DNA of 64,000 nucleotides. Origin: Oceanicaulis sp. HTCC2633 (lineage in GTDB: Bacteria > Pseudomonadota > Alphaproteobacteria > Caulobacterales > Maricaulaceae). The stretch lies in NCBI RefSeq assembly GCF_000152745.1, contig NZ_CH672428.1:926916-990915 (forward strand). Reading direction: 5' to 3'. Under the pieces are notes generated by a model that saw only the letters and a list, made by a program, of their open reading frames with translations, did no database searches and was not told where the DNA came from. The translations under genes were made by a program, and so were the position numbers. Below, piece after piece: positions 2,868 to 16,842 of the stretch (its first letter is position 1; the number at the start of each line of letters is the position of its first letter).

Positions 2868-2917
2868 GTCGGCTCGCGAAATTCGGTGTTGGACAGACCC
2901 TAGCGGGCCTTGCGCGC

Positions 2918-3691
2918 TTAAACCACCGCGTCGCGCTGCGCCGTGATGATCATGTGGCCGGGCTTGTGAAAAATCGCCAGCTCCGGCTTTGCGTCCAGCA
3001 CCACAGCCTGGGGCGTCACCCCGCACGCCCAGAACACCGGTACATCGCCCTCTTCCAGGACAGGTTCATCACCGAAATCGGGCTGCATGATGTCCGCAAT
3101 GCCGATCGCCGCCGGATCGCCGGCATGGACGGGCGCGCCGTGGCTGCCAGGAAACCGTCCGGTAATTTCGCTGACCCGCTCCACAAGCTCGGCCGGATAT
3201 CCCCGCATGGAGACGACCATGCCGCCCGCAAACGGCCCAACCGGCGTGCACTCAAGATTGGTGCGATACATGGGCACATTGCGGCCCGCATCGATATGGC
3301 GAACCGGCAGGCCTTCGGCCAACAGCGCATGCTCGAAGGTGAAGGAGCACCCCAGCAGCAGAGCGACCAGGTCCTCGCGCCACAGCTCGGTCAGGTCCGT
3401 GCGCTCCTCGCTGAACTCGCCATTGCGGAACACCTCGAAGCGCGGCGCATCGGTGCGCACATCCACATCCAGCTTGGGGATGGTCGGATCGCCCGGCTCG
3501 CTCATGCCCAGAAGCGGACAAGGGCGCGGGTTGAGCTGAGTGAACAAGAGGAAATCATACGCCATGGAGGCCGGCAGAATCACCAGATTGGCCTGGGCGA
3601 AGCCCGGGCACAGCCCGGTGGTGGGCTGGTCAAAAGCGCCGGATCGAACCGCCGCAAGATGGGCGTCACGAAGCGAATGCGGGTCAGTCAT
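2918..3691 (-). CDS. DUF1445/YcsI family putative hydro-lyase (D-glutamate cyclase family)
   Basis: A 257-aa cytoplasmic protein of the YcsI/DUF1445 family. Family-like stretches include the N-terminal GLCPGFAQANLVILP, the LLGCSFTFEHALLAEGLPVRH segment and FWACGVTPQAV near the C-terminus. Bacterial members are usually called putative hydro-lyases; the mammalian relative DGLUCY cyclises D-glutamate to 5-oxo-D-proline. The gene precedes murL on the same strand by 50 bp, so the two may form an operon, which makes a D-Glu-related role plausible here. The start ATG at 3691 follows an AAGGAC-like ribosome site; ten further in-frame codons upstream exist but look less likely. The family is well supported; the substrate is inference. 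Confidence 0.8.
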   Translation of the reverse strand: MTDPHSLRDAHLAAVRSGAFDQPTTGLCPGFAQANLVILPASMAYDFLLFTQLNPRPCPLLGMSEPGDPTIPKLDVDVRTDAPRFEVFRNGEFSEERTDLTELWREDLVALLLGCSFTFEHALLAEGLPVRHIDAGRNVPMYRTNLECTPVGPFAGGMVVSMRGYPAELVERVSEITGRFPGSHGAPVHAGDPAAIGIADIMQPDFGDEPVLEEGDVPVFWACGVTPQAVVLDAKPELAIFHKPGHMIITAQRDAVV

Positions 3692-3750
3692 TGCGAAGTC
3701 CTTGATCTGACGCCAGTTCACGTCAGTTCAGCGCAGCACGCAAGCCATGA

Positions 3751-5247
3751 TTAACGACTCATTGCATCCCGGACCGCATCGACGCGAGAACGCCCCACCG
3801 GCGCCTCGGCGCCACCAACAAGGCTGAGCGCATAGCGACTGCCCGGACGGGTCAGCAACGCCTCCGTCTTGGCCATGTTCACCGCATAGGAGCGATGCAC
3901 GCGCAGAAGTCCCGGCCCGGCCTCCTCCAGCACCGCCGCCAGCCCGCGCTGATCGAGCAGCCAGTCGCCGCCGCAGCGATGCACCTCGGTGTAATTGCCT
4001 GCGGCCTTCAGATACAGCACGTCCTCAAGCGCGACCCGGTGCAGGCGCCCGGTGGATTGCACCGTCAGCGCCGCCTGTTGCGGCGTGGCGTCGGTCGCCT
4101 GTGGTGCAGCGGCGGGCGATAAGAGGTCCGGCGCCCGCACCATCCACACCCCCAGCGCCACAGCGGTGATGGCGTAAACGCCCAGATCGATGAACCGCCC
4201 GGGCGCCACAAGGTTCAGGAACAGCAGCGCAATCCATACCCCCGCCATAGCCAGGGCGTTGCGGTCGAGCCGAATGCCAGCGAGCAGAGTCCACACCAGA
4301 CTGCCCAGCAAGGCGCACATGGTCAGTAGGATGATCTTGCCGTCATAGCCGTCAAACAGGAGCACGCCCAAAAGGGCGCAGGCGGTCGTGATCCCGATGG
4401 CGGCGCGGCTCCAGACCCGCCCCAGCACCCAGCGCTTGACCAGAAAGCCCAGACAGCCCGCTGAAAAGCCCGCCATGCCCATCAAGATCACGGCCTGTCG
4501 GGGCTGATGCCAGCTATAGGGATAATTGACATAGGCGCGCGAGATTTCCGCGAGCGCGGCGATGACCAGAGCGCCCAGACCCGCCGCCAGCCAATACAGG
4601 GCTTTGTCCGCGCGGTCCTGTCCCAGACGGATCAGCCCCACGGCCAGAACGACCAGAATGCCCGCCAGCCCCAGCGTCGGCGCATAAAGGCGCAAAGACC
4701 GCCGTGCATCGGCGCGATAGGGCGTGGTGCCCACGGTTTGCAGGATCACCGCCGGATCATAGCCCGCGCGCGTGCTGGAGACCTCAAGCTCGATGATATT
4801 ACCGCTGGGACGGATCAGGTTCGACGGCAGCGCGATCAGGCTGTCGATCGGCCCGGCCCGCTCTGGCCCGTCCGGGCCGAGGGGACGGCCCTTGGCCCCC
4901 ACCCTCTCGCCATTCAGAAAAGCCAGAGCGGAAAACGGTCCCGACAACTCGAGCGCCATGGGGGCGCCGGTCTCAAACGCTTCATCGGGCGCCGCCCAGC
5001 GCACACGTACGACGCCTTGCGCCGGATCGACGCGCCATATCTGTGCGCTTGCCCAGTCTGAAGAGACCGAAGGATCGGCGCCCGGCGCCAGAACGCTGAC
5101 CTCGCCCGCGCGCCAGATCAGCGTCTCTTCACCCGGCCAGGGAGCGATCAGGATCAGGGCGCAGACCAACGTCGCCAAGGCGGCTTCCCAAGGACGCAGG
5201 GTTTGCCCGATGCGGGCTGTCAAAGCCTTGAGCTGTTCACCCCGCAT
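3751..5247 (-). CDS. membrane-bound LytTR-type DNA-binding regulator
   Basis: A 498-aa protein. A TM helix near residues 20-40 is followed by an extracytoplasmic beta-rich region (about 45-180), then seven or so hydrophobic helices (about 185-375). A proline/alanine linker leads to a LytTR DNA-binding domain (about 395-495) containing HRVALEDVLYLKAAGNYTEV and LLRVHRSYAVN. LytTR domains bind direct repeats in promoters; here the domain is tethered to a membrane sensor rather than a receiver. No histidine kinase is adjacent. It is divergent from the serine hydrolase, with starts 108 bp apart, so that gene is a possible target, but this is a guess. Confidence 0.85.
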   Translation of the reverse strand: MRGEQLKALTARIGQTLRPWEAALATLVCALILIAPWPGEETLIWRAGEVSVLAPGADPSVSSDWASAQIWRVDPAQGVVRVRWAAPDEAFETGAPMALELSGPFSALAFLNGERVGAKGRPLGPDGPERAGPIDSLIALPSNLIRPSGNIIELEVSSTRAGYDPAVILQTVGTTPYRADARRSLRLYAPTLGLAGILVVLAVGLIRLGQDRADKALYWLAAGLGALVIAALAEISRAYVNYPYSWHQPRQAVILMGMAGFSAGCLGFLVKRWVLGRVWSRAAIGITTACALLGVLLFDGYDGKIILLTMCALLGSLVWTLLAGIRLDRNALAMAGVWIALLFLNLVAPGRFIDLGVYAITAVALGVWMVRAPDLLSPAAAPQATDATPQQAALTVQSTGRLHRVALEDVLYLKAAGNYTEVHRCGGDWLLDQRGLAAVLEEAGPGLLRVHRSYAVNMAKTEALLTRPGSRYALSLVGGAEAPVGRSRVDAVRDAMSR

Positions 5248-5355
5248 TTGAGCATTTCGTCCTTTTCAAGTTTCGCGGGCGCAAAACCGCCTGCAGACAG
5301 AGGGTGTTGGCGGTCACCGCCTCTCCCCACGCAAACGACAACAAGGACGCCTTTA

Positions 5356-6402
5356 ATGCAAACCCTCATTGCCGCACTCGGCTCCGCCGCGCTGATCACC
5401 CTTCCGGCGATGGCCCAGAGCCAGACCGAAACCGCCCAGGCGATCTTTGATCAGTTCGCCGCCGGTTATCCCGCCCTCAACGCCACGGTGATGGTGAATG
5501 GCGAGATCGTCTTTGAAGCCGAGGGCGGCACGATGCGCAGCGATCACGATGGCGTCGATACGGACTATAACGTCTATTCAACGGCGAAAATGTTCACCGG
5601 CCTCGCCTTCGCCCGGCTGGAAGCCCATCAGGGGCTCGATCTCGATCAGTCCGTTCGCAATATCGATCCCGCCCTGCCCGACCCTTATCAGGACGTGACC
5701 TTGCGCCAGCTCCTCAGCCATACCGCAGGCGTGCGCGGCTATACCGGTGATACCGACTGGATCGCGTTCAATGATCTGCGTTGCGAGCTGCCGTCAGACG
5801 CACTGGGCCATTTCATCAACGATCCGCTGATCCATGCACCCGGCGCACGCCATGAGTACACCACTTATGGCTTTGTGCTGTTGAGCCATCTGCTGGTCGA
5901 ACTAACAGGCTCGGACAGCTTTGACGCGGCCATGGAGCAAACACTCGGCGACGCCTATCTGGCGCACAAGGATTCCCTGAACGCGGACAAGGCCACGCCC
6001 TATTTTGACGCCGGTGAAGGTCTTGAACCCATGCCCCTGTCAGCAGAGTGCAAATTCGGCGGCGGCGGTCTGATCGCCTCCAGCCGGGATCTGGCGGCCA
6101 TGGGGTCCGCTCTGGTGGAAGGCCAGCTCTTGAGCGCTGAAGAAATTGACGCCGCCTTCCAGCCGATCCAGACGACAGGTGGTGACGCCGTGAGCTATGT
6201 CTACGGCATGGAAGCGGGTTTTGAGCCGAGCCTGAACCTGCATTACGCCGCCCATTCCGGCGGCAGCCCGGGCGGCCGCAGCTTTGTGATGGCCTATGTG
6301 GAGCCGCAAGTGGTTGTCGCCACAACCGGAAACGCCGACGGCGACAATCATTACCCGCTCGCCCTGGCCCTGGCGGACCTGTTCGCAGGCTACGCCCGAT
6401 AA
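5356..6402 (+). CDS. secreted serine hydrolase, beta-lactamase/LACTB-like fold
   Basis: A 348-aa protein with a signal peptide ending at AMAQ (about residue 20), so periplasmic. The class C beta-lactamase-type nucleophile motif SxxK is STAK in YSTAKMFTG. The second motif is YTT rather than the YxN of true AmpC, as in LACTB-type peptidases. The third is HSGGSPGG. This pattern fits a serine peptidase or esterase more than an antibiotic-resistance enzyme. The first ATG that gives a signal peptide is 5356. It is followed by a strong GC hairpin and is transcribed away from the LytTR regulator. Confidence 0.8.
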   Translation: MQTLIAALGSAALITLPAMAQSQTETAQAIFDQFAAGYPALNATVMVNGEIVFEAEGGTMRSDHDGVDTDYNVYSTAKMFTGLAFARLEAHQGLDLDQSVRNIDPALPDPYQDVTLRQLLSHTAGVRGYTGDTDWIAFNDLRCELPSDALGHFINDPLIHAPGARHEYTTYGFVLLSHLLVELTGSDSFDAAMEQTLGDAYLAHKDSLNADKATPYFDAGEGLEPMPLSAECKFGGGGLIASSRDLAAMGSALVEGQLLSAEEIDAAFQPIQTTGGDAVSYVYGMEAGFEPSLNLHYAAHSGGSPGGRSFVMAYVEPQVVVATTGNADGDNHYPLALALADLFAGYAR

Positions 6403-6406
6403 AGTC

Positions 6407-6438
6407 ATCGGGCGCCCGGCTTGCACCGGGCGCCCGAT
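6407..6438 (+). terminator. GC-rich hairpin after the serine hydrolase
   Basis: A perfect 13-bp stem (ATCGGGCGCCCGG paired with its complement) with a 6-base loop starts 4 bases after the stop codon. There is no T-run, so it may stop transcription weakly or protect the mRNA end. Confidence 0.5.
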
Positions 6439-6586
6439 CCAGGCGGAAACCAATGCGGTCGCTGCAGGCCGACCGATTGGTCCGCCACGGATGCGATCCG
6501 GATCAGCCCCGCTCACATGGCGCTGATCAGGGACCAGCACCGCATAAGAAACGCGCGCCGAGGCTTTTCGTTCACCGATCGTGCAA

Positions 6587-7198
6587 TCACAGATCCGGCG
6601 GCGCGTCGGCATGGCGCCACATATAGCGCGCCAGATAGGAGCGATAGGGCGCAAACCGCGCCGCTGTCCGGACGGTCTTGCGGCGCTTGCTCGTCAGCTT
6701 TTCCAGGGTCTTGCGCGCCGTCACATCCCCATCAGGCCAGATATCCGGTTCGCCGAAATAGAAGATGTTGGCCATGTCCGCCGTCCAGCGGCCCACGCCC
6801 CAGATTTCGACCAGCCGGTCAGATCGGTCCTCAGGCGGCATCGCCCTGAGAACATCGGCCTCGAGCGCGCCCTGCCGGTTCGCCTCGGCAATGGCGAGCA
6901 GGGTCTTCACCTTGGCGCCGGACAAACCGCAGGCGCGCATCCGGTCGGCTTGATTCTCACAGAAGGTCTCAAGCAGGCTGTCCTGCGTCTCGCTCAACGC
7001 AGCAACCCGCGCCCAAATGGAGGCCGCGGCCTTCACGCTCAATTGCTGACCAGCCACAGAGCGGCACAGGGATAAAGGAAAGGCCAGGCTCGGAGCGCGC
7101 CAGGGCGCCAGCAGGCCCTGCCGCGCAATGGAGTGATGAAGCTCCGGGCTCAGATCCGCCGCAGCAGACAGGCAATGGTCGTGGGCATGCTGGGTCAT
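6587..7198 (-). CDS. DNA-3-methyladenine glycosylase II-type (HhH-GPD) base-excision repair enzyme
   Basis: A 203-aa HhH-GPD superfamily protein that would remove alkylated bases from DNA. SVAGQQLSVKAA lies in the N-terminal half. A helix-hairpin-helix segment, EIWGVGRWTADMANIF (about 131-146), is followed by the catalytic aspartate region WPDGDVTARKTL. The length suits the short AlkA-like glycosylases that lack the AlkA N-terminal domain. The start at 7198 is uncertain: an ATG 16 codons upstream (7246) is in frame, and the two starts have similarly poor ribosome sites. The gene is divergent from the TonB receptor and its 5' side faces the Fur-like box. Confidence 0.8.
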   Translation of the reverse strand: MTQHAHDHCLSAAADLSPELHHSIARQGLLAPWRAPSLAFPLSLCRSVAGQQLSVKAAASIWARVAALSETQDSLLETFCENQADRMRACGLSGAKVKTLLAIAEANRQGALEADVLRAMPPEDRSDRLVEIWGVGRWTADMANIFYFGEPDIWPDGDVTARKTLEKLTSKRRKTVRTAARFAPYRSYLARYMWRHADAPPDL

Positions 7199-7261
7199 GC
7201 CCCTATCGGGCCTGTTCGCGGAGAGACGGTCAACTGCGCGAGCCATATCGATTCTGCAATT

Positions 7262-7296
7262 CATTCTCATTTTATATTGATATTGAGAATGACACG
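7262..7296. promoter_or_regulatory. Fur-type iron box upstream of the TonB receptor
   Basis: An AT-rich patch in GC-rich DNA holds an inverted repeat, CATTCTCA (7262-7269) and TGAGAATG (7284-7291). The hexamers GATATT-GAGAAT-GACACG resemble GATAAT repeats of Fur boxes. It lies 38-72 bp before the receptor ATG, where repression by iron-loaded Fur would act. Seen: the repeat. Inferred: Fur as the binder. Confidence 0.6.
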
Positions 7297-7333
7297 CATT
7301 AAGCATGCCGCAGATTTGATACGGGGTTTTCTC

Positions 7334-9436
7334 ATGACTTTCCGCTCCTCCCTGCTGGGCGCCTGCGCGCTCATGACGCTGGCGACTTCCGCCCATGCGC
7401 AAACCGAGACGAACACGTCCGGTGAAACCGAAGATGTGATCGTGGTCACGGGCGCTCTGGGCGCGTTCGGCGCCACCAAGTCCAGCGCACCGATCCTGGA
7501 GACCGCACGCTCTGTGTCGGTCGAGACGTCCTATGACTTCATCTCGCGCGGCGCCCTGAACCTCAGCGACACGCTCAATTACACCTCGGGCGTGCTGGGT
7601 CAGGCTTATGGCTTCGCCACCCGCGGCGATTTCTTCACCGTGCGCGGGCTCGACGTGCCGGAATATCGCGACAATCTTCAGGCGCTGTTCGGCAATTACA
7701 ACAACACCCGTCCCGACCTTTACACCATCGACCAGGTGGAAGTGCTCAAAGGGCCGGCCTCTGTGCTCTATGGCCAAGGCTCTCCGGGCGGCATTGTGAA
7801 CCTTGCATCCAAGGTCGCAGGACCGGATCTCGGTCAGGAGATCGTGGCGAGCTATGGCACGCATGACCGCGCCGAACTCGCTGGCGATTTCAGCACCACG
7901 CTGATCGAGGACACGCTCCATGCCCGCTTTGTCGGCGTGGTGCGCGACAGCGACACCCAGGTCGATTACGTCAATGACGACGCAATTGCGCTGGCGCCGT
8001 CCCTCACCTGGACACCGGGCGAGAACACCGAAATCAACCTGCTGTTCAACTATGATGACCGCGACGGCGACGCCGCCGGCCAGTTCATCCCGCTGACCGG
8101 CACCTATTATCCCGGCCCCAATGGCGAGACGATCGAGCCGAGCACCTATCTGGGCGAGCCTGGCTTCAACACCTATGAGACGGACTCCACCGCCCTCACA
8201 GTGATCGGCAGTCACCGCCTCAATGACATCTTCACGCTGGAAGGCACGGCGCGCTGGCGCGATTCCGGTTCCACCTATCGACAGACCTGGGTCGCCTTCG
8301 CGGGCGCAGGCGTTCCGCGCATCCTGCCCAATGGCGACAGCCGGTATGGCCGCCGCTGGTATGACAGCGAAGCCAGCTCCAAACAGCTCGCCTTCGACAC
8401 GCGCGTGCGCGCAGATTTCGTGACCGGCGCGTTCGAGCACGAGGTTCTGGGGGGCGTAAACTATCAGAATGTCGAGCTGGACAGCGAGTCCTCCTACCTC
8501 CTGCAAGGCACGATCAATGTCTTCAATCCGGTCTATGGCGACGGTCTGCCGACCCAGGCCGAGATCGACGCCGTGCGCAGCTACACCTCCAGCGAGACCG
8601 ACTATTGGGGCTTCTACCTGCACGACCAGATTTCCTGGGGGAACTGGATCTTCAATGCCGGACTGCGCGCTGATGAGGTGAGCAATGAAACCGGCGCCGT
8701 GAGCCAGGATGATGACGCGGTCACCTATTCGGTCGGGCTTCTGTACGCCTTCGATAACGGGTTCTCGCCCTATGTCAGCTATGCGGAATCCTTCGAGCCG
8801 GTGATCGGCATCGACAGCTTCACCAATCAGGCGCTCAACCCGCAGGAAGGCGAACAGGTCGAGATCGGCGTGAAATACCAGCCCGCCGGGACCCGCACCT
8901 ATCTGACGCTGGCCTGGTTCGACATCACCCAGACCAACCTGCCGAACCCGGTCGCCCTGCCGACCGCACCGTCCCAGCAGGAGGGCGAAGCCAGCGTCAC
9001 CGGTTTCGAGTTCGAAGGCGTGACCACGTTCGAGACCGGCTATGGCGACCTGAAGCTGGATGCGGCGCTGACGCTTCTCGACACCGAAGACGCCAACGGC
9101 ATTCCCTTCTCGGTGATCCCTGACGAGCAGGCCTCGCTGTGGGCCGAGTTCCGCCCCGCCGCGCTTGACGCCCTGCGCATCGGCGCCGGCGTGCGCTATG
9201 TCGGCGAACGCGAGAGCAATGGGGTCAGCGTCGTCAATGGCGACATCGTGCGCATCGTGTCTGACAGCTACACCCTCGCCGACCTCCTCATCGGCTATGA
9301 GCTTGAGGACTGGAGCGTCGCTCTGAACGTCCGCAACCTCTTCGACGAAGCGTATTACGGCAGCTGCCTGGCGCGGGGCGATTGCTTCCCCGGCGAGGAG
9401 CGCACCGTCAATCTGCGCGTCGCGAAACGCTTCTAG
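7334..9436 (+). CDS. TonB-dependent siderophore/iron receptor
   Basis: A 700-aa outer-membrane receptor. A signal peptide ends at AHAQ (about 20). A TonB box-like stretch, EDVIVVTGA, follows, then a plug domain (about 50-160) with FFTVRGLDVPEYRDN and VEVLKGPASVLYGQGSPGGIVN, then a 22-strand-type barrel ending in a terminal Phe (RVAKRF). This is the pattern of FhuA/FecA-like siderophore receptors that take ferric complexes through energy from TonB-ExbBD. The start 7334 gives the signal peptide; an in-frame ATG at 7289 lies within the Fur-like patch and is less likely. It is first of three genes in an iron-regulated cluster. Confidence 0.9.
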   Translation: MTFRSSLLGACALMTLATSAHAQTETNTSGETEDVIVVTGALGAFGATKSSAPILETARSVSVETSYDFISRGALNLSDTLNYTSGVLGQAYGFATRGDFFTVRGLDVPEYRDNLQALFGNYNNTRPDLYTIDQVEVLKGPASVLYGQGSPGGIVNLASKVAGPDLGQEIVASYGTHDRAELAGDFSTTLIEDTLHARFVGVVRDSDTQVDYVNDDAIALAPSLTWTPGENTEINLLFNYDDRDGDAAGQFIPLTGTYYPGPNGETIEPSTYLGEPGFNTYETDSTALTVIGSHRLNDIFTLEGTARWRDSGSTYRQTWVAFAGAGVPRILPNGDSRYGRRWYDSEASSKQLAFDTRVRADFVTGAFEHEVLGGVNYQNVELDSESSYLLQGTINVFNPVYGDGLPTQAEIDAVRSYTSSETDYWGFYLHDQISWGNWIFNAGLRADEVSNETGAVSQDDDAVTYSVGLLYAFDNGFSPYVSYAESFEPVIGIDSFTNQALNPQEGEQVEIGVKYQPAGTRTYLTLAWFDITQTNLPNPVALPTAPSQQEGEASVTGFEFEGVTTFETGYGDLKLDAALTLLDTEDANGIPFSVIPDEQASLWAEFRPAALDALRIGAGVRYVGERESNGVSVVNGDIVRIVSDSYTLADLLIGYELEDWSVALNVRNLFDEAYYGSCLARGDCFPGEERTVNLRVAKRF

Positions 9437-9453
9437 GATCGAGTGCTGAGATC

Positions 9454-10041
9454 GTGGCGACCTCTTCGATAGCAGCACTGATCGTCGGACTGGCGCTGGG
9501 CCTTCTGGGCCTGGCGCTGGTCCGTCAGTCCTGGCTCAGGCGTCAGACCCGGCATACGGGTCTGATGGCGACGGGCTGGAGCCTGATGATCCTTGCCACA
9601 GCCCCCCTCGTGGTCGCGCTTGGCCCCGATCTGGGCGTTACCACTGCTTTCATGGCGCCCATGCTCGGCGCCATTGCGCTTTTGAGCCCGGGCATGATCC
9701 AGCCCGTCGGGGCAGCCTCAAACGCCGTCAGTCCGGCGAGCGCATCACGCACGCATTGGCTGGCGAGCTTGCGCACCCTCATCGTGTGCCTGCTGGCCGG
9801 TCCTGCCGCCCTGACCGTGACGCTGATTGCATCCATCGCCCTGCTTCGGATGACACAGGGCATTGGCTGGACCATGCCGGACAGCCTGTTGTTGGTCTTC
9901 CTGTTCGCGCCTCTCGCCTGGGCCGGGCTCGCCGTCATCAGCGCGCTCGACGCCCCCTTGCGCTGGCGCAGCGCCAGCCTCGCAGCCCTTGCCGCCGTGT
10001 TCGCCATCCTGGCGCTTCTACTTTCGCCTTCCATTTCGTGA
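9454..10041 (+). CDS. small polytopic membrane protein of the iron cluster
   Basis: A 195-aa hydrophobic protein with about five TM helices and no catalytic motif I recognise. The start is taken as GTG 9454, 17 bases after the receptor stop, because hydrophobic sequence begins there and no ATG suits. Small membrane proteins often sit between TonB receptors and PepSY proteins in proteobacterial iron operons, where their role is unclear. It ends 8 bases before the PepSY gene, so all three are likely co-transcribed. It could be an accessory to reductive release of iron in the inner membrane; that is inference from context only. Confidence 0.65.
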   Translation: MATSSIAALIVGLALGLLGLALVRQSWLRRQTRHTGLMATGWSLMILATAPLVVALGPDLGVTTAFMAPMLGAIALLSPGMIQPVGAASNAVSPASASRTHWLASLRTLIVCLLAGPAALTVTLIASIALLRMTQGIGWTMPDSLLLVFLFAPLAWAGLAVISALDAPLRWRSASLAALAAVFAILALLLSPSIS

Positions 10042-10049
10042 GACGTCCC

Positions 10050-11567
10050 ATGGCCGCCCCTGCCCGCCCTTCGATCTGGCCTGATCTGTCCGCCAAGCTG
10101 GTGGCGCGCATGCTGTCGGCCCATGCCGGCCTCGGCGTCATTCTGGGCGCCCTGCTCTACATCGTCTCGCTGAGCGGGGTTCTCGTGGTTTTCCACGCCG
10201 AGTTCGCCCGCTGGGAACAGCCGCATATCGTTGAGAGGCAGAGCGTGTCGCCCGAGCTGGCGCAAAGCGCAGCGCAGAGCGTGCTCGATCATGCGCGCGC
10301 CATGGACGATACCCCCGACGAGATCATGATCTTCATGCCGACCCCGGACTCACCGCGTCTGGCGGGCGGCTATGACGACAGCTACTGGTTCATCGATGAT
10401 CAGGCCCGGCTGGGCGAGCGGATCGATCACGGCTTTTCCGAATTCCTGATCGACCTGCACTACTATCTGCACCTGCCCTCCACGCTCGGCCTGATCGTCG
10501 TGGGCCTGATGGGCGTGATGATGCTGGCGCTGGTGGTCTCGGGTTTTCTGGCCCATCCGCGCGTGTTCAGGGACGCCTTTCGCAGCCGCAAGCCCGGCAA
10601 TGGCCAGCTCAGCCTGGCGGATCGCCACAACCGGCTGTCGGTCTGGGGCGCGCCCTTTCATGTCATGATCCCACTGACCGGCGCCGCCCTGGGGCTGGCG
10701 ACGATTGTCGCTTTGGTGCTGGCCCAGTCCGAGCCCGAAATGACAGTGACGGACATGTTCGACACGGTGTTCGGCGCGGGCGCCGAACAGACGGCGCCCG
10801 CCGGCCCCCTGCCGGACGCCGCGCAGGCCTTGCGGGTGGTGGCAAAAGACTTCGCCGAAGACGGGCTGATCCCGTGGATCATCCAGATCCACCATCCGGG
10901 CGAGGACGAGCAGACGCTGCAGATCCTGACCGCCGCGCCCGACCGCCTGATCTTCGGCGAATACCTCCAGTTCTCACCCGATGGCCGCTTCATCGGCCAG
11001 ACCGGGCTAGAGAACGGGGAGTTCGGTCAACAGGCCATGGCGTCCGTCTACAACCTGCATTTCGGCAATTGGGGCGGCGCGCCGATCAAGCTGGTCTATG
11101 TCGCGCTCGGCCTCGCCCTGTGCGTGGTGTGCGTCAGCGGCGTTCAGCTCTGGCTCTACAAGCGCGCCCGCAAGAAAGGCCCCCAGCCCCGGCTTGAACG
11201 CGCCTGGATCGCCCTGGTCTGGGGACCGGTGGCGCTGATCGGACTGTGCCTGACGCTGGATCGGGTCTTCGGGATTGCAGATTCGCTGCTGGCGCCGGTC
11301 TTCTGGATCGGCCTGGTCGCCCTCGCCGGTCTCAGCCAATTCGCCCCCTCCAAGGCAGGACTGTCCTGCGGTCTCAAACTGACAGGATCAACGCTGCTCC
11401 TGATTGGCGCCAGTGCGCATTTCCTAGCCTATGGGGCCAGCGGCTATCAGAACCCGGCCGCCTGGGGCGTGTTCGCGGGCATCATCCTGAGCGCCCTGCT
11501 GCTGACAGGCGACGCACTGCGCCAACCTCGCGCCGGGGTGACGCCTGCCGTGGTCCCGGGAGACTAG
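10050..11567 (+). CDS. PepSY-associated transmembrane protein (iron uptake reductase-like)
   Basis: A 505-aa inner-membrane protein with TM segments near residues 25-50, about 150-175, 210-230, 350-370 and three to four more at the C-terminus. Extracytoplasmic PepSY-like loops lie between them. Family marks include HAGLGVILGALLYIVSLSG near the N-terminus, DLHYYLHLP, and SVYNLHFGNWGG with YVALGLALCVVCVSG. Conserved histidines in the helices (HAG, HYYLH, LHFG) suggest haem or metal binding, as in FoxB/PiuB-type proteins linked to iron release from siderophores. It is third in the TonB-receptor cluster. It overlaps the end of the convergent STAS-like gene by 4 bases. Confidence 0.85.
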   Translation: MAAPARPSIWPDLSAKLVARMLSAHAGLGVILGALLYIVSLSGVLVVFHAEFARWEQPHIVERQSVSPELAQSAAQSVLDHARAMDDTPDEIMIFMPTPDSPRLAGGYDDSYWFIDDQARLGERIDHGFSEFLIDLHYYLHLPSTLGLIVVGLMGVMMLALVVSGFLAHPRVFRDAFRSRKPGNGQLSLADRHNRLSVWGAPFHVMIPLTGAALGLATIVALVLAQSEPEMTVTDMFDTVFGAGAEQTAPAGPLPDAAQALRVVAKDFAEDGLIPWIIQIHHPGEDEQTLQILTAAPDRLIFGEYLQFSPDGRFIGQTGLENGEFGQQAMASVYNLHFGNWGGAPIKLVYVALGLALCVVCVSGVQLWLYKRARKKGPQPRLERAWIALVWGPVALIGLCLTLDRVFGIADSLLAPVFWIGLVALAGLSQFAPSKAGLSCGLKLTGSTLLLIGASAHFLAYGASGYQNPAAWGVFAGIILSALLLTGDALRQPRAGVTPAVVPGD

Positions 11568-11995
11568 ATCAGGACCACGGAGTCTTCATCGTGATTAGGC
11601 AAGGGGTCCGAAATTGAGCCGTCGCATCCCAGCCAGCCCAGCACATCGCTCCAGTCGGTGAAAGAGCGCGCATCCACGGCGCGTTCTCGCAAGAGATCCA
11701 CCATGAGCGCCGCTGGGCGGCTGTTTCGCCCGCTGCTGAGATAGCTGACCCGTAATCCGGGCGGCACATGGATGCTCATGCTCAAGGCCAGCTCTGAATA
11801 CTCGTTGATCAAACGCCGCAGGACCGCCGCCCTGTAATCAATGATGAGACCGCTCAGAACCGGGCGAGCGAGCCGCCTTGCCAGATCCCGGATCAAAGCC
11901 GCAGACTGCTCGAGCGTACCCCCTGCCCCCAGAGCGAAGCACCAAACCCTTGGCGCTTCAAAGATCAGCTGACTGGCGTAGACGGGATGCTTCAT
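11564..11995 (-). CDS. STAS/SpoIIAA-like small protein, paralogue A
   Basis: A 143-aa soluble protein of unknown function. The alternation of strand and helix and the central LSGLIIDYRAA strand resemble STAS/SpoIIAA-like domains, which bind partners or small ligands. It aligns end to end with the next gene: xxPxxW near residue 17, LSGLIIDYRAA at about 47, RN...AALM at about 90 and WLGC at about 125. The pair therefore arose by tandem duplication. It overlaps the 3' end of the PepSY gene by 4 bases (convergent). No catalytic residues are evident. The domain call is tentative; the paralogy is clear. Confidence 0.65.
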   Translation of the reverse strand: MKHPVYASQLIFEAPRVWCFALGAGGTLEQSAALIRDLARRLARPVLSGLIIDYRAAVLRRLINEYSELALSMSIHVPPGLRVSYLSSGRNSRPAALMVDLLRERAVDARSFTDWSDVLGWLGCDGSISDPLPNHDEDSVVLI

Positions 11996-12061
11996 CCTGC
12001 CGCCTTGCCCGATTATAATTTAATAACTTCTGAGCGATTTGAGCGACGAGGCGCATTCTTG

Positions 12062-12475
12062 CTAGAGCCAAACAGTCGAAGGAATGGGATCCACCGCATA
12101 CGGACAGCCAAGCCATTTCGCCATGACCTCCCACTCCGCGAAACCTCGCACGAACAAACCGTTCTCAATCAGCAGTTTGATCATTAAAGCCGCTTGTGGC
12201 GCATTTCGACGATTGGTCAGATAGGCCACCTGAAAATAGGGCGGCAGAAAGAGACTGAACCGTTTCGCCAGTTCCGCGAATTCACCGGCCATCAAGTTCA
12301 AGCGCGCCGCACGATAATCAATGATCAGTCCGCTCAAACGCTCTTCGACTATTCGCCTTGAGAGTCTTTGAAGGTTTCTGACTGATTTGTCTATGGTGAC
12401 TTCACCGCCTACAGCCGCATACCAGATATTTGGCGCCTCGTGCAGCAAGAAGCGCGCATACAGTGATCTATCCAA
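12062..12475 (-). CDS. STAS/SpoIIAA-like small protein, paralogue B
   Basis: A 137-aa protein collinear with the gene at 11564-11995. It shares YA...L..EAP..W, LSGLIIDYRAA, RN...AALM..LL and WLGC. The start is a TTG at 12475; alignment of both N-termini (MDRSLYARFLLHEAP with MKHPVYASQLIFEAP) supports it, and an in-frame stop lies just upstream. The gap between the paralogues is 66 bp, so they may be co-transcribed. Upstream is a long AT-rich non-coding stretch that must hold the promoter. Function unknown. Confidence 0.6.
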   Translation of the reverse strand: MDRSLYARFLLHEAPNIWYAAVGGEVTIDKSVRNLQRLSRRIVEERLSGLIIDYRAARLNLMAGEFAELAKRFSLFLPPYFQVAYLTNRRNAPQAALMIKLLIENGLFVRGFAEWEVMAKWLGCPYAVDPIPSTVWL

Positions 12476-12829
12476 AGCCAGGACCCACTACAAATGACTA
12501 CCTAAACTTCACTTGTTTGTAAATTTGGATTCGATAGATGCATATTGGCAATATGTATGATTATTTTTTACAGTTAATAATTTCTATTCCTATAGAGCCG
12601 AATAAGTCATGAAACTCCAGCAAGCTACAATTGCATAAAATCCAGATTGGGGATTCTTTGCATCCAATTACATCATTTTTATGGTAACTGCTCTTGATTA
12701 TCACGAAAACCTTCGCATCAGGATTGTCAAAGGTCAGGCCTTACTCGCCATACGTGTAAAGCGCTTACTCCTGTGGCCGCAGCGTAGCGAGGAGCGAAAG
12801 TCCGGACGGTGTTAAGCATCGGGAAAAAC
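12476..12829. other. AT-rich non-coding stretch beside the split tRNA
   Basis: I find no convincing open reading frame here on either strand. Base composition falls well below that of the flanking housekeeping genes, which suggests foreign or degenerate DNA. It presumably holds the promoter of the STAS-like gene on the minus strand. On the minus strand a run of five T follows the tRNA CCA end almost at once (12824-12828), which could terminate the tRNA transcript. Confidence 0.5.
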
Positions 12830-12887
12830 TGGTGCGGGCGGCCGGAGTCGAACCGGCACGGGCGTTGCCGCCCAACGGATTTTAAGT
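12830..12887 (-). pseudogene. 3' half of interrupted tRNA-Leu(UAA)
   Basis: Read on the minus strand, this begins in the anticodon loop (ACTTAAAA, 12887-12880). It continues through the anticodon 3' strand TCCGT, a long variable arm (GGGCG-gcaa-CGCCC), a perfect T arm (GCCGG-TTCGACT-CCGGC), the acceptor 3' strand CGCCCGC and encoded ACCA. Its acceptor strand pairs 7 of 7 with the 5' half at 13951-13957. Together, sharing one ACTTAAAA, they give an 89-nt class II tRNA. One C-U mismatch is left at the base of the anticodon stem (positions 27-43), possibly decay since the split. Confidence 0.9.
12880..12887 (-). repeat. core direct repeat, left end of island (ACTTAAAA)
   Basis: The 8-base anticodon-loop sequence ACTTAAAA (minus strand) recurs at 13919-13926. 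The two copies bound the insert and would be the crossover sequence in site-specific recombination. Similarity ends abruptly on both sides. Confidence 0.8.
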
Positions 12888-12984
12888 ATTATCGCACGAA
12901 GTTCAGATGGTAAAACCAATCACCGTTTTCGCTAAGCTATGCTTGGAGATAACTCATACGCGCTCGATCTAATTTTAGAGCCCT

Positions 12985-13046
12985 CGCGTCACATGTGACG
13001 CGAATTGTGACGTCTCGCGTCACATACTTACTGATCCGCGTCACAT
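12985..13046. repeat. left cluster of GCGTCAC palindrome and half-sites
   Basis: The perfect palindrome CGCGTCACATGTGACGCG occupies 12985-13002. After a 4-base spacer come GTGACG (13007-13012), then CGCGTCACAT at 13016-13025 and again at 13037-13046. The palindrome, 4-base spacer and GTGACG recur in the same orientation at 13780-13807. Clustered sites near an element end are typical of protein-binding arms for a recombinase or regulator. The last copy overlaps the stop codon of the 13041-13298 reading frame. Confidence 0.75.
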
Positions 13047-13298
13047 TACGTCGTCATCAACATTGAAATTTTGAAAGTCATCCGACCAATGAAGGCTGAA
13101 CAAATACAACCCATTCTTAATTTCCTGAATAAATCGCAGACACTCCTCTGATGATATAACATCAAGATCATCATACAAAGCAGTCATTCTTGCCAAATTC
13201 GTGGAAAAAGCCCCATCCACAATTGCTGTATTGGGCCAATCATCAGAACGAACTGAAAGCAAATCAATGACTTTTAGATAAAGCATCACGATATCCAT
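13041..13298 (-). CDS. AbiV-like C-terminal portion (probable frameshifted second half)
   Basis: An 85-aa reading frame starting MDIVMLYLKVIDLL and overlapping the end of the upstream frame by 35 bases. AbiV proteins are usually about 200 aa in one piece, with a segment resembling R..ALY(V)... after the dHkkKL region. Here YRDAL in the upstream frame runs into YLKVIDLLS in this frame. The simplest reading is one AbiV-family gene broken by a single-base insertion or two-base deletion near 13275-13285. It could also be a translationally coupled second gene or use programmed frameshifting. The base composition is AT-rich like the rest of the island. Confidence 0.5.
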   Translation of the reverse strand: MDIVMLYLKVIDLLSVRSDDWPNTAIVDGAFSTNLARMTALYDDLDVISSEECLRFIQEIKNGLYLFSLHWSDDFQNFNVDDDVM

Positions 13299-13659
13299 CG
13301 CTCTCCCTATCTACACTTAAATTCTCCGAAAAATAAGATAAGAATTTTTCTACCATAACCTCATCTTTATTGGAAAATTTAATATTCTTTATAACGCTAG
13401 CAATAACTTGATCAGCGGACATGAAAAAGCTGTTTGAGTAAATAATCCAACGCAGGGCTCTTCGCAGCTTCTTTTTATGATCTTCTAAATCCTTCGTACT
13501 TGCCTCCCCTTCTGCCCGAAGAATGGCTTTTCCTAGCTCCTCAAACGCATGAACGGACAGCACATAGGCCGATCTGATACGCTTGTGGGTAAACAGCAAT
13601 TCAGCATCCTCAATGAGCTGCTCGGCATTGCGATACGCTGGAGATCGGTCCAAAAACAA
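13264..13659 (-). CDS. AbiV-family abortive infection protein, N-terminal portion
   Basis: A 131-aa helical protein. The motif NAEQLIEDAELLF...RSAYVLSVHAFEELGKAIL, followed by DHKKKLRRAL, matches the AbiV phage-resistance family: an A/H-x-EE-x-GKA core, then dHk-K. AbiV of Lactococcus stops phage multiplication by interacting with a phage protein and blocking late translation. The start is TTG at 13659, only 7 bases from the 5' end of the divergent tRNA-Leu, so any leader would be antisense to that tRNA. The frame ends early at 13264, and the rest of the family appears in the overlapping frame. Whether it is functional is uncertain. Confidence 0.6.
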   Translation of the reverse strand: MFLDRSPAYRNAEQLIEDAELLFTHKRIRSAYVLSVHAFEELGKAILRAEGEASTKDLEDHKKKLRRALRWIIYSNSFFMSADQVIASVIKNIKFSNKDEVMVEKFLSYFSENLSVDRESDGYRDALSKSH

Positions 13660-13665
13660 ACTCTC

Positions 13666-13749
13666 GGCCCCTTGGTGGAATGGTAGACACAGCAGACTTA
13701 AAATCTGCGGCTTTCGGGCGTCCCGGTTCGAGTCCGGGAGGGGCCACCA
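13666..13749 (+). tRNA. tRNA-Leu(UAA), complete copy inside the island
   Basis: 84 nt including encoded CCA. The acceptor GGCCCCT pairs 7/7 with AGGGGCC. The anticodon stem GCAGA/UCUGC encloses loop CUUAAAA with anticodon UAA at 13699-13701. The variable region is GGCTTTCGGGCGT and the T arm CCCGG-TTCGAGT-CCGGG. It differs throughout its stems from the interrupted host tRNA, so it is not a recent copy of it. It decodes UUA and, by wobble, UUG. As the interrupted gene cannot make a normal tRNA, this copy may now be the cell's main UAA isoacceptor. It is divergent from the AbiV-like gene. Confidence 0.95.
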
Positions 13750-13779
13750 AAGTCAAACAAGTTTAGCTCAAGAAATTGC

Positions 13780-13808
13780 CGCGTCACATGTGACGCGCCT
13801 CGTGACGC
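13780..13808. repeat. right copy of the 18-bp palindrome and half-site
   Basis: CGCGTCACATGTGACGCG at 13780-13797 is identical to the left copy at 12985-13002, 795 bp away. As on the left, GTGACG follows after exactly 4 bases (13802-13807). It lies about 120 bp inside the right core repeat, much like the left copy's roughly 100 bp, so the clusters mark both subterminal regions. Confidence 0.75.
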
Positions 13809-13918
13809 ATAAGCGTAGCCTGAAATCACATAAAAGGTTGAGAGATGACAACTGGTTGGCAGGCGCCAACAATTGGAATTTTGAAACCGTTTCCAATAGT
13901 CGATTGTACTTTCAGTGC

Positions 13919-13926
13919 TTTTAAGT
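13919..13926 (-). repeat. core direct repeat, right end of island (ACTTAAAA)
   Basis: Second copy of the anticodon-loop octamer, in the same orientation as 12880-12887. It joins the tRNA 5' half to the island. Just inside the island are two small inverted repeats: ATTGGAA/TTCCAAT (about 13872-13897) and GTTGG/CCAAC (about 13855-13870). Confidence 0.8.
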
Positions 13927-13957
13927 CCGGTGCGTCTACCAATTCCGCCACGCCCGC
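13919..13957 (-). pseudogene. 5' half of interrupted tRNA-Leu(UAA)
   Basis: On the minus strand this starts with acceptor GCGGGCG (13957-13951), then TG, a D arm GCG...CGC enclosing GAATTGGTAGA, then A-CCGGA and the anticodon loop CTTAAAA, where similarity to tRNA stops. It is completed by 12887-12830. The native promoter should lie in 13958-13998 and would now transcribe into the island, across the replacement tRNA in antisense and into the AbiV-like gene. Confidence 0.9.
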
Positions 13958-13998
13958 CGCGTGTGTTGCGCGAACACCGTTCGTTCTGAATACGAAAC

Positions 13999-14024
13999 GG
14001 GCCGGACTTTTCCAAGTCCGGCCC
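13999..14024 (-). terminator. terminator of the ClpP-like gene
   Basis: An 11-bp perfect stem (GGGCCGGACTT and its complement) with a 4-base loop lies 29 bases after the ClpP-like stop, followed on the minus strand by GTTTCGTATT. It lies just upstream of the tRNA-Leu 5' half, separating the two transcripts. Confidence 0.7.
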
Positions 14025-14052
14025 GCTGTCGTTTGGCAGAAAGATAAGGCGG

Positions 14053-14673
14053 TTAGCGCTTGATCTCGTCCTGGCTGGTGATGATCTTGCCGCACAGGCC
14101 ATATTCAACCGCATCCTTGGCCGAAAGCCAGAAATCGCGGTCGGTGTCCTTCTCGATCTGATCGAGCGACTTGCCCGTGGCGTCAGCGAAAATCTGGTTC
14201 AGACGCTGACGCATGGAGCGCATCTCACGGACCTGGATCTCGATGTCGGACGCCATGCCGCCCGCGCCGCCGGACGGTTGGTGCAGCAAGAAGCGGGTGT
14301 TGGGAAGCGCGTAGCGGTCTTCCTTATTAGCGCCCACATAGATCAGCGCCCCGGCGCTCGCCACCCAGCCCGAGCCGAGCACGATCACGCGCGGTTTGAT
14401 GAACTTCATGGTGTCGTGGATCATGTCGCCCGATTCCACATGACCGCCCGGAGAGGAGATGACCATCAGGATCGGGTCGTCGGACTTGGCCGCCAGCGCG
14501 AACAGCTGGGCGCAGACCTCACGCGCCGTCTTGTCCGAAATGCCCCCGGTGATCAGGATGGTCCGGCTCTCAAACAGCGCCTTGCCCACATAATCGGGGG
14601 TTTTCGGCGCGTTATTGTCTTCGCCGTCTTCGTCGTCATTGCGGATGATCGGGTCGGTATAGCCGTAAGACAT
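14053..14673 (-). CDS. ClpP-family serine protease (non-canonical ClpP paralogue)
   Basis: A 206-aa cytoplasmic protease of the Clp/crotonase fold. The catalytic serine sits in [15 protein letters not shown], the histidine in [13 protein letters not shown] and the aspartate in the [12 protein letters not shown] stretch, giving the full triad. The nucleophile block differs from the GQAASMGA of housekeeping ClpP. No clpX or tig neighbour is present, so this is probably the second ClpP seen in many alphaproteobacteria, which may pair with ClpA/ClpX or act in other complexes. An acidic N-terminal segment (NDDEDGEDN) precedes the core. It has its own terminator. Confidence 0.85.
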
Positions 14674-14810
14674 CAGCGGCGGTCCTCAAATCAGGCTGGA
14701 AGCCCTGAAGCTCAGGGCCGGTAAGGCAGGTTCAGGCCAAAACGTAAGATGGCCCGCGCGGGACGGCAAGCATGGCCTCCAGCGCGTTAAGGCGCGGTTG
14801 CTCCCCGCGC

Positions 14811-15563
14811 CTATTGCGCGAGCCGGTGCAGCGCCCGCTCCACCTCCGCCAGCGCCTCCGGATCCACGCCCCGCGCGACGAGCGCCACGCCGCGGGTGAT
14901 GGAGCCGTCCTCGGTCTCCTGGAACCAGGGATAGGAGCCCAGCGACACTTCCGGATAATCGATCTGCAGCTGGCCCAGCGCTTCGGCCAGATCGCCTTCC
15001 CGCGCGCCCTCGAGCCGCACCGTGACAGACTGGGTGACAGCGCCCCGGGTCAGGCGCGGCGCGACATCCTCCAGCATGCCGCGGGCGATCTTGGGGACCC
15101 CGGCAAGGACGAAGACATTCTCGATCTGGAAGCCCGGCGCCCCGGTGACCGGATTATCGATCAGGATTGCCCCCTCGGGAATGCGCGCCATGCGCAATCG
15201 CGCGGTCGTGACCTCGGTCTTGGCGCGGGCGTACCAGTCTTCCAGGATGGCGAGCGCATCGGCCCGCACGTCTATGCTGCGTCCGAAGGCGGCGGCGACC
15301 GCGTCGGCGGTGATGTCGTCATGGGTGGGCCCGATGCCGCCCGTGGTGAAGACATAATCGCACCGCGCGGACAGCGCCTGAACCGCCTCGATGATGGCGT
15401 CCTGGTCATCGGAGACGATTCGCACTTCCTTGAGGCCGATACCCAGCGGCGCCAGGAACTCGGCGATCTGCTGCACATTGATGTCACGGGTGCGGCCCGA
15501 CAGGATTTCATCGCCAATGACGACAATCCCCGCGCTGACGGTCTTGTTCCCGGTTTCACTCAT
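14811..15563 (-). CDS. CinA-like molybdopterin-binding-domain protein
   Basis: A 250-aa protein matching the N-terminal COG1058 domain of CinA: VVIGDEILSGRTRDINVQQIAEFL at residues 14-37 and YVFTTGGIGPTHDDITADAVA at about 70-90. The MoaB/Mog-like fold is complete, but the C-terminal nicotinamide-nucleotide deamidase domain of full CinA is absent, as in many proteobacteria where the two halves are separate genes. Stand-alone versions may act as ADP-ribose or NAD-derivative pyrophosphatases. It is divergent from sfsA, with 71 bp between starts. Confidence 0.85.
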   Translation of the reverse strand: MSETGNKTVSAGIVVIGDEILSGRTRDINVQQIAEFLAPLGIGLKEVRIVSDDQDAIIEAVQALSARCDYVFTTGGIGPTHDDITADAVAAAFGRSIDVRADALAILEDWYARAKTEVTTARLRMARIPEGAILIDNPVTGAPGFQIENVFVLAGVPKIARGMLEDVAPRLTRGAVTQSVTVRLEGAREGDLAEALGQLQIDYPEVSLGSYPWFQETEDGSITRGVALVARGVDPEALAEVERALHRLAQ

Positions 15564-15634
15564 GGCCGCCCCTCTCTTGCGTGCGTGGTCGGGCAGACTA
15601 TGGTCCGCCCCTTCCCGCTCTCCAAGGTCTTGTG

Positions 15635-16336
15635 ATGCGATTTCCCGCCCCGCTCCATCCCGGCGTCCTGATCAAGCGCTATAAACGCTTCCTGGCCGAT
15701 GTGGCGCTGGACACCGGAGACACCGTCACCGCGCACTGCCCCAATCCGGGCTCCATGATGGGATTGAAGGAGCCGGGCAGTCGCTGCTGGCTCAGCCATG
15801 CCGACGACCCCAGACGCAAGCTCAAATACACCCTGGAGGTTCTTGAAGCCGACGGCGCCCTGGTGGGCATCAACACCCACCGCCCGAATGCGCTGGCGGA
15901 AGAGGCCATCCGGGAAGGACGCATTCCCGCCCTGTCCGGCTATGGCAGCCTCAGGCGCGAGGTGAGATACGGCGTCAATTCGCGCATCGACCTGTTGCTC
16001 GAGAGCGAAGACCGGCCGGCCTGCTATGTGGAGGTGAAGAACTGTCATCTCATGCGCACCCCGGGGCTGGCGGAGTTTCCGGACAGCGTGACGACACGCG
16101 GCGCCAAGCATCTGGGCGAGCTCAGCGAGATGGTGCGTCAGGGCCATCGCGCGGTGCAGCTCTTCATCGTGCAGCGTCCCGATTGCGACGCGCTGTCCCC
16201 GGCGGAGGACCTGGATCCCGATTACGCCCAGGCTCTGCGTGACGCTGCGGCTGCAGGCGTCGAGGTCCTCGCCTGGGCGTGCGCAGTGACGCTGGACGGG
16301 ATAGAGGTGATCCGCGAGATCGAGGTGAGACTGTGA
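15635..16336 (+). CDS. sfsA: sugar fermentation stimulation protein homologue SfsA
   Basis: A 233-aa member of the SfsA family. Conserved parts are RYKRFLADV at about 10-18, TAHCPNPGSM at 31-40, and the nuclease-like active-site region SRIDLLLES...CYVEVKNCHLM at about 113-138. The PD-(D/E)XK-like core suggests a nucleic-acid-binding or nuclease role; the original link to maltose metabolism in E. coli is indirect. The start ATG 15635 was chosen to begin at the conserved F-P-x-P-L sequence. Its stop overlaps the GTG start of the thioesterase (GTGA), so the two are translationally coupled. Confidence 0.9.
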   Translation: MRFPAPLHPGVLIKRYKRFLADVALDTGDTVTAHCPNPGSMMGLKEPGSRCWLSHADDPRRKLKYTLEVLEADGALVGINTHRPNALAEEAIREGRIPALSGYGSLRREVRYGVNSRIDLLLESEDRPACYVEVKNCHLMRTPGLAEFPDSVTTRGAKHLGELSEMVRQGHRAVQLFIVQRPDCDALSPAEDLDPDYAQALRDAAAAGVEVLAWACAVTLDGIEVIREIEVRL

Positions 16337-16842
16337 GCGAGACCCACGTGCTGAACCCTGAAGACGCCGGCTGGGACCTGCCCCGGCCCTTCATCCTGCC
16401 CGTCACGGTGAAGACGGAGGATATCGACGACTTCGATCACGCCAACAATTCGGTCTATCTGCGCTGGGCGGACCAGACCGCCTGGGCGCACTGGGAGGCG
16501 GACGGCTACACCCGTCAGAATTGCCGCGATCTTGATCGCGGAATGGCGATCCTGCGCACCGAGGCGGACTATCTGGGTCATTGCCGCAAGGACGAGGACA
16601 TCGCATGCGCCGTGTGGATCGCCCGGTCAGACGGCAGATTGCGCGCCGAGCGCTGGTACCAGTTCCGTCGCGTCTCGGACGGAGAGACCGTTTTCCGCGC
16701 CGTCACGAAACTGGTCTGCTTCCAGCTCAGCACAGGCAGGCCGGCGCGAATGGTGGACAGTTTCGCCCGCCATTACGGCAAGCCCGCCGAGGATCTCAGC
16801 CAGGCGGCGGACGCGCTGGACGCCCGCCTGAAACGCGGCTGA
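16333..16842 (+). CDS. acyl-CoA thioesterase, 4-hydroxybenzoyl-CoA thioesterase-like hotdog fold
   Basis: A 169-aa single hotdog-domain protein. The active-site helix motif DIDDFDHANNSVYLRWADQTAW (about 34-55) carries the catalytic aspartate of the 4HBT family. A strand with GETVFRAVTKLVCFQL closes the fold. It would hydrolyse acyl-CoA thioesters in the cytoplasm; the substrate is unknown. The start is GTG 16333 overlapping the sfsA stop codon; no ATG suits the conserved region better. Confidence 0.8.
   Translation: MSETHVLNPEDAGWDLPRPFILPVTVKTEDIDDFDHANNSVYLRWADQTAWAHWEADGYTRQNCRDLDRGMAILRTEADYLGHCRKDEDIACAVWIARSDGRLRAERWYQFRRVSDGETVFRAVTKLVCFQLSTGRPARMVDSFARHYGKPAEDLSQAADALDARLKRG

Follow-up and report, generated by a model that had tools for sequence, protein, structure and literature searches.

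Some temperate phages break a host tRNA gene on integration and supply a tRNA of their own in its place, a principle shown by experiment as the tRNA-dependent lysogeny of actinobacteriophages (Guerrero-Bustamante and Hatfull, 2024, PMC10865867). In the accessible text of that report the common cores are short (8-17 bp; 8 bp in the case of phage Gaia, whose target is tRNA-Leu(CAA)), and the spread of the phenomenon beyond actinobacteriophages is said to need study. In Sinorhizobium meliloti, according to the available part of another report, prophages resembling Mesorhizobium phage vB_MloP_Lo5R7ANS lie in tRNA-Leu(UAG) in two strains (PMC11476347), and the available part of a third reports other prophages without tRNA-dependent lysogeny (PMC12429752). 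Here we describe a 1,031-bp insert in a 64,000-nucleotide stretch of the genome of Oceanicaulis sp. HTCC2633 (contig NZ_CH672428.1, positions 926,916 to 990,915 of the forward strand; hereafter the window, whose own numbering is used below). The insert splits the tRNA-Leu(UAA) gene of the host and carries a whole tRNA-Leu(UAA) of another type together with an AbiV-like gene. We favour, with some reserve, the reading that it is a tRNA-swap mini-island without an integrase, a hitcher that was most likely moved by an integrase in trans.

Like the actinophages, the window island joins a tRNA gene at a short 8-bp core, leaves the target unrestored and carries its own tRNA. Unlike them, complete temperate phages of Actinobacteria with their own integrase as the accessible text presents them, it is a 1-kb alphaproteobacterial element with neither integrase nor phage genes; its larger relatives, described below, have a group I intron in the substitute tRNA, whereas the same text mentions none for actinophage substitutes (PMC10865867). 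The Sinorhizobium prophages resemble the window island in that an alphaproteobacterial tRNA-Leu is broken in mid-gene and an element-borne tRNA-Leu, in their case similar to that of another taxon, stands in for it. They differ in being prophages and not a mini-island and in using another isoacceptor, and no intron is mentioned in the available part of the report (PMC11476347). Like the hitchers and satellites that borrow helper functions (PMC11389934), the window island is too small to move alone and appears to keep its ends; a helper for it is hypothetical. Finally, the group I introns of tRNA-Leu(UAA) (Rfam RF00028; Nostoc, PMC4476775, in its accessible part) occupy the same place, U34/A35, as the introns in the substitutes of the integrase-bearing relatives. 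The difference is that the introns of these relatives sit in island-borne substitutes, where they cut the crossover core; the window substitute has no intron.

An initial annotation of the window had called the swap-tRNA layout unfamiliar. This did not hold, as the principle was already known (PMC10865867, PMC11476347) and the island is no isolated case, given a counterpart (L256) and a large integrase-bearing class. What is new is the second 1.1-kb island with the same parts in another family, and the integrase-bearing islands that do likewise with intron-bearing UAA substitutes. Our literature search, to which subscription journals were mostly closed and papers often open in part, returned nothing on group I introns in element-borne substitutes or on AbiV in tRNA islands. 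The findings suggest that the replacement of an essential tRNA is not restricted to complete phages, since both an integrase-less 1-kb element and a broad integrase-bearing class do so. A mobile element that swaps a tRNA is difficult to shed, through which a defence gene could become fixed in a population. The swap is also a route for the horizontal replacement of tRNA genes, and the masking of an attachment site offers a testable reason for the presence of group I introns in bacterial tRNA-Leu genes.

The host tRNA-Leu(UAA) gene is split at an 8-bp core

On the minus strand, the 5' half of the host tRNA-Leu(UAA) gene (13919-13957) ends with the core ACTTAAAA (13919-13926), and the 3' half (12830-12887) starts with the same core (12880-12887). 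The overlap of the two halves is exactly this 8-bp core, which lies in the anticodon loop, and when joined the halves give an 89-nt tRNA-Leu(taa) in ARAGORN, which confirms the halves and the shared sequence proposed in the initial annotation. The acceptor and T stems of the joined tRNA are full, as had been described; the anticodon stem has one mismatch. The island body between the halves (12888-13918, no strand assigned) measures 1,031 bp, or the 1,039 bp given originally if one core copy is counted. In the window as it stands, only the inner tRNA (13666-13749, plus strand) was detected by ARAGORN and Rfam. Because ACTTAAAA occurs only six times in the 3.17-Mb genome, and three of the six are at this locus, the split is more than chance.

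An ordinary island, which repairs its target tRNA through a matching end, would also occupy a tRNA gene and would also have a direct repeat at both ends, as seen here. However, neither insert junction restores a tRNA (ARAGORN and Rfam on the window, ARAGORN on the joined halves), and the repeat is only 8 bp. The sequence contradicts this explanation, to which we give next to no probability, and it was rejected. Alternatively, the insert could be an intron and the host halves could be spliced in RNA. Its position in the anticodon loop, the home of the tRNA-Leu(UAA) group I introns, would agree with this. Group I introns need a 3'-terminal G, however, and the insert, if read at U34/A35, would end in T (the base before the 3' exon). 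In addition, the window holds no Rfam intron at the gathering score, the insert contains a whole tRNA on the other strand, and the group I introns of the relatives reside in the substitutes. An intron in the host tRNA is hardly conceivable in these circumstances and was rejected for want of an Rfam match and for its wrong boundary base; RNA splicing, which the initial annotation had considered, is contradicted as far as the sequence tells. Swap integration in the anticodon loop is very likely.

The insert carries a substitute tRNA and an AbiV-like gene

The inner tRNA is a complete tRNA-Leu(UAA) of 84 nt including CCA, without an intron, different from the host gene and on the other strand, as had been noticed initially. 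The genome (3.17 Mb, three contigs, completeness 100) gave 42 tRNA matches, and the sole Leu(UAA) found among them is the inner tRNA; two 72-base matches in this count are untyped and are too short for a Leu tRNA. The remaining Leu anticodons are TAG, CAA, CAG and GAG. The proposal that the target was destroyed and replaced by a substitute is therefore supported, as the target is unrestored and a whole tRNA-Leu(UAA) of another type lies inside. Because the target is broken, the substitute is in place and the genome yielded no other UAA-Leu tRNA, the host likely depends on the island for tRNA-Leu(UAA), which lends support to the tRNA addiction suspected at the outset.

The AbiV-like open reading frame (ORF) of 131 aa (13264-13659, minus strand) matches HEPN_AbiV in Pfam (PF18728; 2.6e-12, 47.6 bits versus a cut-off of 27.1) and AbiV, an abortive-infection protein, in PADLOC (8e-6), in agreement with the initial annotation. 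It covers only positions 9-82 of the 155 in the profile. An ORF of 85 aa (13041-13298, minus strand) in another frame overlaps its end and is possibly its C-terminal part. This shorter frame has no family or convincing match of its own, and a frameshift linking the two could not be demonstrated with the frames compared separately; the AbiV-like gene may be shortened or frameshifted. A defence role is suggested for the HEPN gene by the name of its family, which is the sole basis for it.

The GC content is 34-52% in 300-base windows starting at 12,950-13,550 and 60-72% from 14,000 onward. The insert is thus AT-rich, as had been stated, but the flank opposite the 14,000 side is AT-rich too, and GC alone is therefore no marker of the insert. 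A comparison with 136 other family genomes gave no match to the DNA of the insert outside its tRNA, and the non-self matches listed from that search fell at query 783-850, within the tRNA (query 779-862). Twelve plasmid records matched, all within query 779-864, that is, in the tRNA and close by, and 37 phage records matched within query 781-873, the tRNA and at most 11 bases beyond. The matches to the inner tRNA in the phage records are annotated mostly as tRNA-Leu, with 75-97% identity. The 1,031-bp insert has no ORF of integrase size, the window has no relative of the integrase family of the larger islands described below, and neither the ORF list nor Pfam pointed to phage genes in the insert, which is also too small for them.

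The same site in congeners and in the order

The host clpP gene (14053-14673, minus strand) flanks the island on the side of the 5' half and served as a landmark for the site in relatives. The clpP side was matched in 15/15 genomes of the genus, and the 3' side likewise in 15/15, not always at one place. In one congener (G096) an uninterrupted tRNA gene stands beside clpP between the same flanks, with 87 of 89 bases identical to the joined host gene, and the matches to the two sides of the window insert meet at the core (138434-138441). In another (G084) the same tRNA is broken at the same ACTTAAAA and its halves are 23.1 kb apart. At its start, the island between them has a gene for a tyrosine integrase, and next comes a whole tRNA-Leu(UAA) carrying a group I intron (Rfam E ~1e-7, under the gathering score). 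An empty-site relative and a related genome with an insert bounded by ACTTAAAA, both of which the initial annotation had suggested looking for, are thus present within the genus, the latter at the same site and core.

A 5' half of the UAA type whose stem is broken was found in 6 of 398 genomes of the order (G000, G084, G013, G361, G259 and G440), a lower bound, as the 5'-half pattern detects one type only. Two of these (G013 and G361) have an integrase and an intron-bearing substitute, as in G084. G259 has a split 5' half with a convergent intronless tRNA-Leu(UAA) about 245 bp off; no integrase-family relative was present in the 7 kb examined, and its 3' half was not found. G440 (L136, C1:1051270) has an orphan tRNA-Leu(UAA) 5' half, with no tRNA-Leu in 38 kb on the island side and no integrase-family relative in the 40 kb examined; here too the 3' half was not found.

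A second mini-island in another family

A search of the class sample with the AbiV-like protein gave matches in 5 of 385 genomes, the own genome included. One of them (G585, locus L256) belongs to another alphaproteobacterial family and has tRNA-Leu(UAA) halves that lie in a 17-bp repeat, AAGGGACTTAAAATCCC, at a distance of 1,109 bp; a valid tRNA results when they are joined. The insert contains a whole, different tRNA-Leu(UAA) and an AbiV-like ORF of 193 aa, which matches nearly the entire Pfam profile (2.6e-13) and is 29% identical to that of the window over 106 aa. In the 11 kb around this island, the search for integrase-family relatives was negative. The order of parts is shared between the two islands: target half, repeats, tRNA, AbiV-like gene, repeat, target half. 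This shared layout was not selected for, because L256 was located via its protein and not via a tRNA. The remaining three AbiV matches have no tRNA within the 1.5 kb fetched on either side. An assembly error or chimaera in the window appears very improbable, as the site lies within a contig of 3,168,988 bases and independent genomes have the same architecture; nothing was found in its favour.

Behind the L256 island, on the reverse strand at about 2207-2870, an AAA/kinase-like ORF of 226 aa lies between the true tRNA 3' half and a second, degenerate copy of that half. This is what would be expected if another cassette, of 0.6 kb, had inserted into the 3' part of the tRNA in the target-restoring way.

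Movement in trans or decay of a larger island

We propose that a small integrative element would have entered the anticodon loop of the single tRNA-Leu(UAA) of the host, by site-specific recombination between the attP of the element and the 8-bp core ACTTAAAA. The target would not be rebuilt; the whole substitute tRNA-Leu(UAA) of the element would then decode the UUA codons, and loss of the insert without exact excision should be lethal. A larger element would supply the integrase in trans, with the mini-island keeping its ends with arm-like repeats, and the AbiV-like HEPN gene would be the cargo. We know of no hitcher that swaps an essential tRNA.

The ends of the insert are marked by repeats (no strand assigned). 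Near the 5' half (13780-13807) there is one CGCGTCACATGTGACGCG (13780-13797) with an imperfect neighbour, and near the 3' half (12985-13046) there is another (12985-13002) with two further CGCGTCACA, so that CGCGTCACATGTGACGCG occurs once near each end. All six exact copies of CGCGTCACA in the 64-kb window are inside the insert, and CGTCACATGTGACGCG, a 16-base stretch of CGCGTCACATGTGACGCG, was found in 1 of the 398 genomes of the order, where its two occurrences are both in the window insert. Viral contigs gave six single matches to the 16-base repeat, none of the loci having the 9-base repeat a second time, and these were taken for chance, without a chance count. L256 carries TGTTGCGGC at 154, 225 and 1,029 of its 1,109 bp, two near one end and one near the other. 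In 7 of 10 integrase-bearing islands examined, TTACACA is found near the cores at both ends. Base shuffles of those ends gave a mean of 0.007 such elements and a maximum of 1 in 1,000 shuffles, for a motif picked by eye from the same sequences. TTAGCACA is present at both ends of L171, and TTACACA only at the left end of L172 and only at the right end of L194. Repeats beside a core are a layout that resembles arm-type integrase sites, and the repeats may be used as putative arm sites of an integrase.

Movement in trans seems most likely because the insert has no integrase yet has kept both ends with their arm-like repeats. The competing explanation is that the insert is a remnant of a larger integrase-bearing tRNA-swap island, from which the integrase and most of the cargo were deleted, the rest being kept as the substitute tRNA was indispensable. 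Large islands of this kind occupy the same site in a congener, integrase-less forms exist in G604 (L259, see below) and G259, and the AbiV-like frame is possibly broken, all of which would agree with such decay. Yet the two islands, each about 1.1 kb long and in different families, have their parts in one and the same order and would require identical leftovers twice, the orientation of the window tRNA is opposite to that in the integrase-bearing islands, and full acceptor and T stems can still be formed between the two halves of the target, so that the insertion looks young. We therefore consider a remnant possible though unlikely, and movement by an integrase in trans on balance the more probable of the two.

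Several observations weigh against the hitcher reading. In the own genome, nothing related to the integrase family found here was detected at E<=1e-3, a search confined to that family, and the repeats of the integrase-family islands differ in sequence from those of the window insert. Only two mini-islands are known, and the orientation of the substitute tRNA with respect to the target is opposite between them. The AbiV-like frame of the window fits only half of the profile, which is compatible with decay too, and the window substitute retains ACTTAAAA unmasked. DNA searches of phages and plasmids gave no additional copy of the insert, and the AbiV-like protein had no match in the plasmids and viral contigs that its search covered.

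Integrase-bearing tRNA-swap islands

Genome contigs were scanned with the three integrases described above (G084, G013 and G361), and the best 80 of 130 relatives together with two from viral contigs gave 82 loci. Upstream of the integrase, 62 have a tRNA-Leu 5' half (30 UAA, 32 CAA) that is not recognised by ARAGORN as a complete tRNA, 11 have an intact tRNA-Met, Trp, Arg or Phe, and 9 have, by pattern, neither. In 50 loci the split half and a substitute could both be located, and their anticodons agree in 50/50 (25 UAA-UAA, 25 CAA-CAA). A group I intron is present in 25/25 UAA substitutes and in 0/25 CAA substitutes, and no intronless UAA substitute was found in this set; the intron was called by a pattern for its 5' end, and most were also detected in the intron mode of ARAGORN. 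Twelve split loci gave no substitute. Four of these end at most 400 bp past the integrase, and the other eight (5 CAA, 3 UAA) include L214, in which ARAGORN detects an intron-bearing tRNA-Leu(taa) that the pattern missed. The 11 loci with an intact upstream tRNA have no substitute on the integrase strand in up to 2.6 kb, of which only 142 bp were examinable in L178.

The 3' halves were searched by pattern in the genomes of 22 UAA islands, with a match in 10. In 10/10 cases a valid tRNA-Leu(taa) is obtained from the 5' half of the island together with the matched 3' half, but no tRNA from the 3' half by itself. Some of these pairs lie on different contigs, and the far ends of the 12 UAA islands without a pattern match were not seen.

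A split tRNA-Leu(UAA), an integrase of the family and an intron-bearing substitute are present in three contigs of Acidobacteriaceae (L144, L154 and L156), so that the system, or the contig assignment, crosses phyla. On a viral contig (L222), a split tRNA-Leu(CAA) is accompanied by an integrase and an intronless tRNA-Leu(CAA), and some integrase-bearing islands may be phages. One member of the integrase family (L173) has a whole tRNA-Tyr(GTA) just downstream and is possibly a swap island for a third isotype. In L166, a tRNA-like stretch with a shortened anticodon loop, seen by eye, lies where the CAA substitute is expected.

Group I introns in the substitute tRNAs

The introns in the substitutes are about 200-280 nt long and lie between U34 and A35, inside the crossover core (ACTT|AAAA). 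An intron in this position may shield the core from re-integration. Disruptions of archaeal tRNA genes, introns included, have been proposed as protection against integration. A plainer reading is that tRNA-Leu(UAA) is merely a common home of such introns. In a tree of the integrases (85 rows, made by a quick method, with a very long branch for L152), UAA and CAA targets interchange repeatedly, with 8 target changes over the 53 rows for which both traits are known. The intron goes with UAA in 5/5 independent pairs on starred branches (sign test 0.0625), and the link across independent pairs is suggestive only. The core is changed in 19 of the 25 CAA substitutes, which is weak evidence of masking, because many rows are near-copies, tRNAs of this kind have both bases natively, and 6/25 keep the core.

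In the class sample, the pattern for an intron-bearing tRNA-Leu(UAA) was found in 9 of 385 genomes, and 6 of the 9 are on or beside islands. Four of the nine directly adjoin an integrase of this family (one a partial match), and a fifth (L263) has such an integrase and a split half about 2-3 kb upstream. In L259 (G604, 1586-16802), the tRNA-Leu(UAA) halves are 15.2 kb apart and give a valid tRNA when joined; an intron-bearing substitute lies 178 bp behind the 5' half, and there are paired GCTAGCACA repeats. No integrase-family relative is present in the 15.2 kb up to the 3' half, and L259 is a decaying or differently driven island. The other three of the nine (L235, L237 and L239, in wider view L260-L262) have neither an integrase of this family nor a split half near the intron-bearing tRNA-Leu(UAA), and therefore speak against a strict link between intron and island.

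It is tempting to speculate, as a tentative scenario that we hold to be somewhat doubtful, that islands which break tRNA-Leu(UAA) and bring a substitute are widespread in Alphaproteobacteria and beyond, that the intron is kept as a shield of the core, and that decay of an island leaves the intron-bearing tRNA as the only copy of the host. The 1-kb AbiV islands would then be hitchers of such systems, holding the host by tRNA dependence while offering defence. If this is true, island decay would account for the scattered tRNA-Leu(UAA) introns in these bacteria.

Reading frames beside the island

Two minus-strand ORFs of 143 and 137 aa (11564-11995 and 12062-12475) adjoin the island. They look alike by eye and have no Pfam match, and the ORF at 12062-12475 sits in DNA that is common with the congener G096 at 90% identity.

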